From positions 1 through 64,000 of the IMG/VR virus record IMGVR_UViG_3300048029_000212: 64,000 nt of DNA. One strand, written 5' to 3'. A model generated the notes under the pieces. It was not told where the DNA came from. It saw only the letters and a list, made by a program, of their open reading frames with translations, and did no database searches. The translations under genes were made by a program, and so were the position numbers. Source of the DNA: a virus. This document shows, piece by piece, positions 8,086 to 54,057 of this stretch; the first letter of the stretch is position 1, and each line of letters opens with the position of its first letter.

Positions 8086-9498
8086 ATGAAGAAACTACTA
8101 ACTGTAGCTGTGTCTACGGCACTCCTGAGTGCATGTTCTGGCGGAGCAGATAACGCATCCGCCCCCGACCCTGTGGTCGTGACTCCCCCAACTGTAACAC
8201 CTGTTGATCCAGCAGTCGAGGCACGTGACAATCTACTCACGTTACTTGACTCCACATCAACGACAGGTTCATACGAAGAATACATCCTTCCCGACAGTGA
8301 TGACTTCGATAACATTCCGCAAGACCCAAGTAATCCTATTACTGCAGAGAAAGTTGCACTAGGTAAGTTAATCTATCATGAGACTGGTATCACTGAAGGC
8401 GACATTGCGTCCAGTGAAGGTACATTCTCGTGCGCGTCATGTCACAATGCCCAAAACGGATTCAAGTCTGGTATTCGTCAGGGTATAGGTGAAGGTGGTG
8501 TCGGTTTTGATCATCGCATGATCGCTGAGGGTGTCAATCCCGAAGACATCGATGTGCAACCTGTTGCAACACCCACTGTACTCAACACGGCATTCCAAGA
8601 AGTGATGTTGTGGAATGGTCAGTTAGGTAATGTGATTGCGGGTAATGTCAATGTTGGTATTGATCCCGATCGTCACTTCACAGAAGGTACTCCGAAAGAA
8701 GCAAACCTACGCAACTTTGCTGGTCTAGAGACACAAGCAGTTGCGGGTCTAGGTGTGCATCGTCAGGGTGACACAGATGATTCTATCCTGCGCACTAACG
8801 AAACTTATCGTGAGATGTTTGAAGCTGCCTACGGTGTTGCAGAACCCGACGATATGTTAGAGGCAACTGCACTAGCGATCGCCGCATACGAACGGACTAT
8901 TCTTGCGAATCAAGCACCCTTCCAAGCATACTTGAAAGGTGACGAAACTGCGATGACTGAATCTGAAGTCGCTGGTGCGGAAGTGTTCTTCGGTAAGGGT
9001 AACTGTTATGCGTGTCATAACGGACCTGCGTTGTCATCTCCCGTTGGTGCGATGGCAGACGAAGTGTTTATGACTGTCGGTTTCCACGATTTAGATATCT
9101 GGGAAGACACGGTCGGTGAAGTCAACGATGCGACTAGAGAGGGTCGTGGTGGATTCACTGGTGATGAGATGGAGAAGTTTGCGTTCAAAGTTCCGCCTCT
9201 TTACAACCTTATAGATACTACTGTATTCGGTCACGGTGCGTCGTTCTCTAGTGTAGAGGATGTCGTGCGATATAAAGTTGATGCGGTTCCCCAACACCCA
9301 CAAGTGGAGACGTATGACCTTGACTATCGGTTCACGCCGTTAGACTTGACCGAAGATGAGATTGCAAACCTTGTTGCGTTCCTTGAGAACGGTTTGCATG
9401 ATCCAGAGTTGATGCGATATGTGCCAGAGTCGTTACCAAGTGGCAACTGTCCTATCAACAACGATGAAGTGTCGCGTCAAGAACTTGGGTGCGACTAA
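8086..9498 (+). CDS. Di-heme cytochrome c peroxidase (CcpA/MauG family) lipoprotein
   Basis: A 470-residue protein. Lipobox LLSAC puts the lipidated cysteine at residue 17, followed by a Pro/Val-rich linker. Two heme motifs, CASCH at 116-120 and CYACH at 307-311, are spaced as in bacterial cytochrome c peroxidases, with the family words LGKLIYHE and TPTVLNTAF before and after the first heme. These enzymes reduce hydrogen peroxide to water with electrons from a small periplasmic cytochrome c. MauG enzymes share the fold and oxidise protein side chains, so the substrate is not proven. I start at 8086 (MKKLL), where the signal peptide begins. The gene is intact, stands alone between a sigma70 promoter and a tRNA region, and is very unexpected in a phage. 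Confidence 0.93.
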   Translation: MKKLLTVAVSTALLSACSGGADNASAPDPVVVTPPTVTPVDPAVEARDNLLTLLDSTSTTGSYEEYILPDSDDFDNIPQDPSNPITAEKVALGKLIYHETGITEGDIASSEGTFSCASCHNAQNGFKSGIRQGIGEGGVGFDHRMIAEGVNPEDIDVQPVATPTVLNTAFQEVMLWNGQLGNVIAGNVNVGIDPDRHFTEGTPKEANLRNFAGLETQAVAGLGVHRQGDTDDSILRTNETYREMFEAAYGVAEPDDMLEATALAIAAYERTILANQAPFQAYLKGDETAMTESEVAGAEVFFGKGNCYACHNGPALSSPVGAMADEVFMTVGFHDLDIWEDTVGEVNDATREGRGGFTGDEMEKFAFKVPPLYNLIDTTVFGHGASFSSVEDVVRYKVDAVPQHPQVETYDLDYRFTPLDLTEDEIANLVAFLENGLHDPELMRYVPESLPSGNCPINNDEVSRQELGCD

Positions 9499-51344: not shown

Positions 51345-51931
51345 TGCGAACTGCATATCGCAGAGCATTGAACGCGGGACTGACTACCTCTCAGGCCCAA
51401 AAGTATTCTGACTACTACCGTCGCAAGACTGTCCTGCCAAAACGCGACAGTGAGAAGACCAAGACCTATAACGCAGAGTGGAAACTCGAAAACGAACACC
51501 CTGAGTTGATCGGTCCACTCAATGAGTTCAAAGACGTGGAGAAGTTTGTAAAACAAGTGACCGCTTCCAAGACTTGGGAGAAGGTGTCCCGTTACCACGG
51601 TAAGGTGAGAGTCGTCCAGTCACGCAATATGGGAAGTCGAGCGGCATACATGGGTAGGTCGCATGGGTCGTGGATCGAGATCTCGCCCGCGTTCGACTTC
51701 AACAAGTACATCGTCCTACACGAACTCGCGCATAGTGCAGGACACAGCCACCACCATGTGACCTTTCGACAGACCCTACTGAAACTGGTGTCGAGGTTCC
51801 TTGGTCGTGAGACCGCCACGATCCTGAAGGCGAACTTCAAGGAACAGGGTCTGCGAGTGACCCCGTCGAAACCGAAAGATCCTGAGTCGTGGTTAAAAGC
51901 AGTAAAAAACGCACCCTTTATTCCAAAATAA
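51344..51931 (+). CDS. SprT-like zinc metallopeptidase
   Basis: A 195-residue cytoplasmic protein. LHELAHSAGHSHHHVTFRQ contains HExxH and a following His-rich stretch, as in phage proteins of the TIGR04338 type. Zinc-dependent hydrolase by motif; substrate unknown. Confidence 0.75.
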   Translation: MRTAYRRALNAGLTTSQAQKYSDYYRRKTVLPKRDSEKTKTYNAEWKLENEHPELIGPLNEFKDVEKFVKQVTASKTWEKVSRYHGKVRVVQSRNMGSRAAYMGRSHGSWIEISPAFDFNKYIVLHELAHSAGHSHHHVTFRQTLLKLVSRFLGRETATILKANFKEQGLRVTPSKPKDPESWLKAVKNAPFIPK

Positions 51932-51944
51932 TCTAAAAAAGGTC

Positions 51945-51972
51945 TTGACTTTATTTGAAAAAAGAGTATAAT
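51945..51972 (+). promoter_or_regulatory. Sigma70-type promoter of the structured leader
   Basis: TTGACT at 51945-51950, 16-base spacer, TATAAT at 51967-51972. Transcription should start near 51979, at the first base of the structured RNA. Confidence 0.82.
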
Positions 51973-51978
51973 GTGTAT

Positions 51979-52111
51979 TGTGAGTTGGGGAGATCTGGTC
52001 TCTCGACTAGGGGCTTCGGCCCACTGTTTGTCTCTCCGAGACATCTGGTGTCAGAATAGGAACTACGGTTCACTGCTTCTTCCCTTCTCACTCCTTTGCT
52101 AAGAGGTTATC
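51979..52111 (+). ncRNA. Structured leader RNA, candidate new regulatory element
   Basis: The expected transcript begins with GTGAG (51980-51984) then GGGGA (51987-51991), which pair with CTCAC (52087-52091) and TTCCC (52080-52084), closing a long end helix. Inside are GGGC-TTCG-GCCC (52011-52022), a GAAC-TACG-GTTC hairpin (52060-52071), and one GAGAC (52038-52042) that can pair either with GTCTC at 51998-52002 or with GTCTC at 52030-52034. No reading frame of note lies within. It ends just before the ribosome site of the gene at 52112. Could be a riboswitch-like leader or a free small RNA. Confidence 0.55.
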
Positions 52112-52348
52112 ATGAGTTGTTTACAAGGATACATTGACGTGTCCTATGAAAGGTTGACCGAAGTGTTGGGAGAGCCTAACATCTTCTACGAATTTAAGTT
52201 TGAAGCGTACGACATCTACGGAGAAGAATTTGAGATCACTATCGCCAGTCAGTACGACGGCACTTGGAGTGTTTTCGCAAACGATCCCTGTGCAATGCGA
52301 ATTGTTGAACGAAAAATACAACCCATTTATTGTGAAAAATTAACATAA
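52112..52348 (+). CDS. Small early protein behind the structured leader
   Basis: Seventy-eight residues, acidic, alpha/beta. AAGAGGTTATC is the ribosome site. Unknown, but the RNA upstream suggests its translation may be controlled. Confidence 0.6.
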   Translation: MSCLQGYIDVSYERLTEVLGEPNIFYEFKFEAYDIYGEEFEITIASQYDGTWSVFANDPCAMRIVERKIQPIYCEKLT

Positions 52349-52366: not shown

Positions 52367-52394
52367 TTGACAATCCCGCCAGATTTGGTATAAT
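52367..52394 (+). promoter_or_regulatory. Strong early promoter (cassette copy 5)
   Basis: TTGACA at 52367-52372, 16-base spacer, TATAAT at 52389-52394. Same upstream A/T tract and the same GATGAGAGAGAG ribosome site as copy 1. Confidence 0.88.
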
Positions 52395-53583: not shown

Positions 53584-54057
53584 ATGATTGCCGAAAATGT
53601 TATTATAGAAAACTCGCCCAATGAGGGCATCTCCGACTATGTGTTTCGTTGCGCAGAGTCAATTGGAATTACCCGTCTAGGCGGGTATGTTAAAGTTTTG
53701 TTTGAAGAAGAGATGATCGGCAATTTTTCTGGTGAAACAGATGGTGATGAAGATCGAGTAGATATTCGGTTTTCAACTCATGACCAAGATGATGAATCGC
53801 TCAAGATTAATATCGCACACGAGTTTGTTCATGCTGTGCAGATTTTAACGGGACGACTCATTCATGTGGGTCTAACTCTTGATGAGGATGGTTTGTCATA
53901 CAAACATATCTTTGATGGAGTTGAGTACACAAACCTTGCCTATGAAGATCATCCTTGGGAAGAAGAGGCGTATAGGTATGAAGAAGAAATCTATCAATCG
54001 GTCGAATCCGGTGGCGAAACACTCACCGAAGTTCAATCGGCCATCCACCCACGTTGA
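53584..54057 (+). CDS. HExxH zinc-peptidase-like early protein
   Basis: A 157-residue acidic cytoplasmic protein with INIAHEFVHAVQIL (HExxH) and a downstream HPWEEEAYRYEEEIY, where the Glu-rich helix gives a third zinc ligand as in many gluzincins. Fourth HExxH protein of the window. Unknown substrate. Confidence 0.7.
   Translation: MIAENVIIENSPNEGISDYVFRCAESIGITRLGGYVKVLFEEEMIGNFSGETDGDEDRVDIRFSTHDQDDESLKINIAHEFVHAVQILTGRLIHVGLTLDEDGLSYKHIFDGVEYTNLAYEDHPWEEEAYRYEEEIYQSVESGGETLTEVQSAIHPR

Follow-up and report, generated by a model that had tools for sequence, protein, structure and literature searches.

The stretch of DNA analysed here (the window, 64,000 nucleotides) is part of a 160,050-base IMG/VR virus record and belongs to a T4-like aquatic phage. 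The closest relative with an annotation is Phage C48C1 (Kyanoviridae, OQ984149); after C48C1, the gp32 of Melnitz is among the nearest to that of the window phage, at about 50% identity. A psbA-family photosystem reaction-centre gene, sought as a sign of a cyanobacterial host, was not found in the 160 kb record. Between window positions 2570 and 9678 there are eight tRNA genes (Asn, Leu, Asp, Pro, Arg, Gln, Ser, Ala). Perfect promoters of the pattern TTGACA-N15-19-TATAAT number 15 in the whole record, 14 being on the + strand, and the reversed control pattern has no match.

At the locus, a promoter is followed by a structured leader RNA and a small gene. Two different small HExxH proteins flank it (51347-51928 and 53584-54054); both are SprT-like by eye, and neither reaches a Pfam match. 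The run of small genes up to gp32 is the same in two other contigs (L212 and L208) and rearranged in others. The features are as follows.

51945-51972, + strand: sigma70-type promoter TTGACT-N16-TATAAT (11/12 consensus matches), predicted start at about G51980
51980-52091, + strand: leader RNA of two fused three-way-junction modules, 112 nt (covariance model R1 and covariation)
51987-51993, + strand: P1 5' strand GGGGAGA, pairing with 52078-52084 (columns 8-14/119-125 of alignment A1)
51994-51998, + strand: junction 1 joining strand UCUGG (AUCUGG with the last P1 base), invariant in 14/14
52001-52008, + strand: P5 5' strand, pairing with 52049-52055, with one bulged C in the window copy
52011-52022, + strand: P2 hairpin GGGC-UUCG-GCCC, 100% paired, two compensatory pairs
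52023-52026, + strand: junction 2 joining strand ACUG, invariant in 14/14
52029-52043, + strand: P3 hairpin UGUCUC-UCC-GAGACA, compensatory changes in 5/6 pairs
52045-52048, + strand: junction 2 joining strand CUGG (part of AUCUGG), invariant in 14/14
52049-52055, + strand: P5 3' strand (covariation, RNAalifold)
52056-52059, + strand: junction 1 joining strand AUAG, invariant in 14/14
52060-52071, + strand: P4 hairpin GAAC-UACG-GUUC, two compensatory pairs
52072-52075, + strand: junction 1 joining strand ACUG, invariant in 14/14
52076-52097, + strand: pyrimidine tract without G (95% C+U), extending from the P1 3' strand in the direction of the Shine-Dalgarno sequence
52078-52084, + strand: P1 3' strand UCUUCCC (covariation)
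52112-52348, + strand: first gene under the leader, 78 aa, with relatives in 25 contigs

The preliminary description had placed a structured leader exactly at the start point of its own promoter, and the relatives bear this out. A promoter stands upstream of the leader in 19/19 representatives, and the distance from the end of the -10 box to P1 is constant at 13-14 nt, so the predicted start falls 6-7 nt before P1. Other elements of that description were also recovered: a long closing helix (GUGAG 51980-51984 with CUCAC 52087-52091, then 51987-51993 with 52078-52084), two tetraloop hairpins (P2 and P4), and the lack of any open frame of at least 60 aa on the + strand inside the leader. The outer GUGAG/CUCAC extension pairs the very 5' end in the window's lineage and is not conserved. 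In two contigs (L118 and L069), the 3' end of a tRNA-like gene (GGTTCGAATCCAGCCACTCCGACCA) lies closely upstream of the leader promoter.

Stability above shuffled sequences and covariation in related phages had been named as checks on the structure, and both came out in its favour. The RNA from 51979 folds at -53.9 kcal/mol against -39.1 in shuffles (z = -4.15, 0/200). In the alignment of 14 two-module sequences, the five helices comprise 29 pairs, which are intact in 96.2% of cells. Compensatory, two-sided changes occur at 14 pairs (34 cells) and in all five helices, a count that takes the sequences as independent, several contigs being close relatives collapsed only when identical. The shuffled controls averaged 5.8 such pairs and reached 14 in 0/500 cases, and slid versions of the structure gave at most two. 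P1 is 99% paired and shows an A-U to G-C change in L128. P5, which links the two halves, has four pairs with compensatory changes and reads UCUCAAC/GUUGAGA, UCCCGAC/GUCGGGA or CCUGAUU/AAUCAGG in different sequences; RNAalifold recovers its five-pair core without a supplied structure. Since G-U pairs are tolerated, selection acts on the RNA. An element working as DNA, or a structure arisen by chance, has its sole support in the position beside the promoter; with this covariation and stability to account for, its probability is close to nil.

Each half of the leader follows the same order: helix, AUCUGG, P5 or hairpin, UAG, hairpin, ACUGYUU, helix. The joining strands AUCUGG, UAG and ACUGYUU are nearly invariant, and the same set occurs in both halves. 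Read from the aligned sequences, the architecture is almost certainly a two-fold pseudosymmetric pair of three-way junctions, fused through a shared P5 and closed by P1. It shows a conserved 5'-leader fold with a near-invariant unpaired core, as looked for in riboswitch-type RNAs. Helix P5, the two-fold junction repeat and the wider family were absent from the preliminary description.

That description had instead seen a switch in two GTCTC segments competing for a single GAGAC. All three segments do occur in the window sequence, but the second GTCTC and GAGAC form the conserved, covarying hairpin P3. The alternative pairing with the first GTCTC has zero compensatory changes and loses one of its five pairs in 8/14 sequences. 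The exclusive pairing taken as a sign of a switch therefore fails in the relatives, and such a switch is very improbable.

A different pair of mutually exclusive helices involves P5. In the window copy, where P5 is irregular because of its bulged C, the free minimum-energy fold favours a local hairpin, CUGGUC/GACUAG, over P5 by about 9 kcal/mol. As a conserved fold this hairpin was rejected: it has zero compensatory changes and broken pairs in 6/14 sequences, whereas P5 covaries. For L010, L035, L061, L068 and L069, energy minimisation gives the conserved fold, P5 included. Since the two helices are mutually exclusive, an exchange between them is possible in the window copy, judging by these modelled folds.

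Relatives of the leader were collected from loci of the 78-aa protein, from pattern scans of IMG/VR and by reading of the matches. They amount to about 50 IMG/VR contigs, with 14 distinct two-module and seven distinct one-module sequences. The number of modules varies: one, two, or two plus one. In the one-module form (e.g. GGGGAGAUCUGGUGUCUUCUGACUAGGAACCCUCGGGGUUCACUGCUUCUCCCC), there is a single junction and a short hairpin replaces P5; this fold is supported separately, by compensatory changes in 5/14 pairs. Covariance models found one leader locus in nearly every record; in the window record, the R1 match at 51980-52090 is the sole one in 160 kb (105 bits, E 8e-25, with the window sequence in the training set). 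Two records (G017 and G028) had an extra 16-bit match beyond the main locus. With these models no leader was found in Phage C48C1, nor in three records that do have the gene (those of L015, L017 and L023).

Outside this set, a pattern scan of 84,980 prokaryote genomes gave 41 matches, all of them chance by eye and none with a flanking first module. Several viral pattern matches (e.g. L143-L153 and L226-L260) were likewise rejected as chance. A blastn search of the INPHARED phage collection with three leaders returned nothing above chance.

Several unrelated gene families can stand first behind the leader, namely the 78-aa one, one of 182 aa and one whose members open with MSDQTIR, besides a weakly SprT-like protein, an HNH-like one (by eye) and small ORFs. 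The 78-aa protein has no Pfam or PHROG match, and a protein search of INPHARED found nothing. At the loci of its relatives the leader is present in some contigs and absent in others, at least ten of the 25 lacking it. In L010 and L049, an ORF that is HNH-endonuclease-like by eye separates the leader from the 78-aa gene, which otherwise follows it immediately. Natural leaderless forms are seen in L015-L016 and L018-L025, where close relatives of the window's downstream gene have a promoter at about the same place and no structured leader.

In every representative read, the leader has the same orientation as the first gene, and in 14/16 a start codon with a Shine-Dalgarno-like sequence follows 16-31 nt after the leader. 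A tract poor in G extends from P1 in the direction of the Shine-Dalgarno sequence and is 83-100% pyrimidine in the 14/14 representatives measured; the figure for the window's other early leaders, in a small comparison, is 22-50%. A translational switch through pairing of the P1 strand with the Shine-Dalgarno sequence found no consistent support, as blocking P1 in silico gave no common shift in accessibility. No intrinsic terminator was found closely downstream of the leader.

Several of these features would also suit a passive 5' stabiliser or insulator, a ligand-free compact fold that protects the early mRNA from 5'-end-dependent decay and leaves the pyrimidine-rich site of ribosome entry open. 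P1 lies 6-7 nt from the predicted start, GUGAG/CUCAC pairs the 5' end in the window's lineage, the leader does not depend on which gene comes first, and the pyrimidine tract comes after P1. However, such a role does not call for two copies of a junction with invariant bases, a single leader of this kind stands beside at least 15 strong promoters in the phage, and the GUGAG/CUCAC extension is not conserved. We regard a purely passive role as rather unlikely.

Regarding known RNAs, no family of Rfam 15 matched at its gathering score, and permissive searches of the element gave chance matches only. We found no description of this leader in the open-access literature, subscription papers being outside the scope of the search. 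Double hammerhead ribozymes also combine two three-way junctions with a common helix, but the joining strands of the leader lack the hammerhead core and no Rfam match was obtained. A further reading is a product acting in trans: processing of the leader could yield a stable RNA titrating some factor of the host or the phage, or the leader could be a new self-cleaving ribozyme. The stable fold, the single locus per record, the many invariant unpaired bases and the lack of a tie to the first gene would fit. Nevertheless, a separate small RNA has no need of the start codon and Shine-Dalgarno-like sequence nearby in 14/16 representatives, and no Rfam ribozyme family matches. We hold a trans-acting product to be quite improbable.

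The glutamine riboswitch (glnA, RF01739) resembles the leader in that glnA RNAs can occur in tandem (PMC2864571) and in its phage setting, having been reported in T4-like marine phages, e.g. Melnitz (PMC9004378). However, its joining strands differ, and it was rejected for this locus: in ten records, that of the window included, RF01739 gave no match there; its best match in the window record lies elsewhere (9373-9393) at 13.9 bits, with a cut-off of 35. The manA and wcaG motifs are precedents for structured 5'-leader RNAs in T4-like cyanophages and marine metagenomes, and their function was left unsettled there (Weinberg 2010, PMC2864571). They adjoin metabolic and photosynthesis genes, whereas the leader described here adjoins small early genes, and no Rfam 15 model reaches its threshold on it.

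Another precedent is putL of HK022; located immediately after PL, it suppresses termination of both the intrinsic and the Rho-dependent kind (PMC9378689). Both are structured RNAs right after a phage early promoter, and put acts in cis regardless of the gene (PMC9378689). A put-like antiterminator, whose nascent RNA binds RNA polymerase soon after initiation so that it passes early-operon terminators, would agree with a gene-independent leader directly after an early-type promoter, in cis orientation and at one locus per record. The fold is different: put has two stem-loops in about 70 nt, and the leader has five helices and two three-way junctions in 112 nt, so that identity with put was rejected. 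Moreover, a perfect promoter at 52367 serves the gene block that comes next in the window, thus little transcript would depend on read-through, and no terminator-like site was seen on the + strand between the leader and 54900. Antitermination of this kind appears improbable.

Leader RNAs as such are already known from phages; what is new here is the family and its architecture. To our knowledge, few structured RNAs of phages are known besides tRNAs, tmRNA and a handful of motifs. The present one is defined to the base-pair level, occurs in many T4-like phages of aquatic origin, is built from one or two junction modules and heads an early transcript.

At the functional level, we give about even odds to the view that these leaders are a new RNA family that acts in cis through a binding core and controls the translation or decay of early mRNA. 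Action in cis, the junction as binding core, and P1 with the pyrimidine tract as output are our inference. Transcription would start just ahead of P1. The RNA folds, as the covariation shows, into two three-way junctions that have identical joining strands, are linked by P5 and are closed by P1. The invariant junction bases would be a putative binding core, present once or twice per leader, and its ligand might be a small molecule or else a protein of the phage or of the host. Depending on whether the core is occupied or folded, P1 may then retain or release the start of the pyrimidine tract that leads up to the ribosome-binding site, and the result would be tuned translation or decay of the early mRNA, whichever gene comes first.

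This cis-acting reading is favoured by the covariation, the fixed distance from promoter to P1, the sense orientation, the recurrence of the joining strands, the variable number of modules and the pyrimidine tract. Against it, the first genes are diverse and without a known metabolic role, unlike those of most riboswitches, the Shine-Dalgarno sequence shows no consistent shift, no terminator is close, and the window copy favours the local hairpin at minimum energy. Because blocking P1 does not consistently unmask or mask the Shine-Dalgarno sequence and no terminator lies close by, the proposed output step is tentative. The passive stabiliser and the put-like antiterminator are the main rivals. 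A more specific proposal, a new phage riboswitch class with a three-way-junction aptamer, either single or as a pseudosymmetric pair with a common helix that would bind two ligands per leader, and with early expression set by the state of the host, is tentative and somewhat unlikely. If the leader does bind a metabolite or host protein, it would show how a lytic phage reads its host as infection begins.

Since one-module forms of about 55 nt occur naturally, the leader is directly testable with short in vitro RNAs. In L007 and L009, at about 3.93-3.98 kb (G006:24520-24573), one of the seven one-module sequences stands in tandem directly behind a two-module copy, with the same gene after it.
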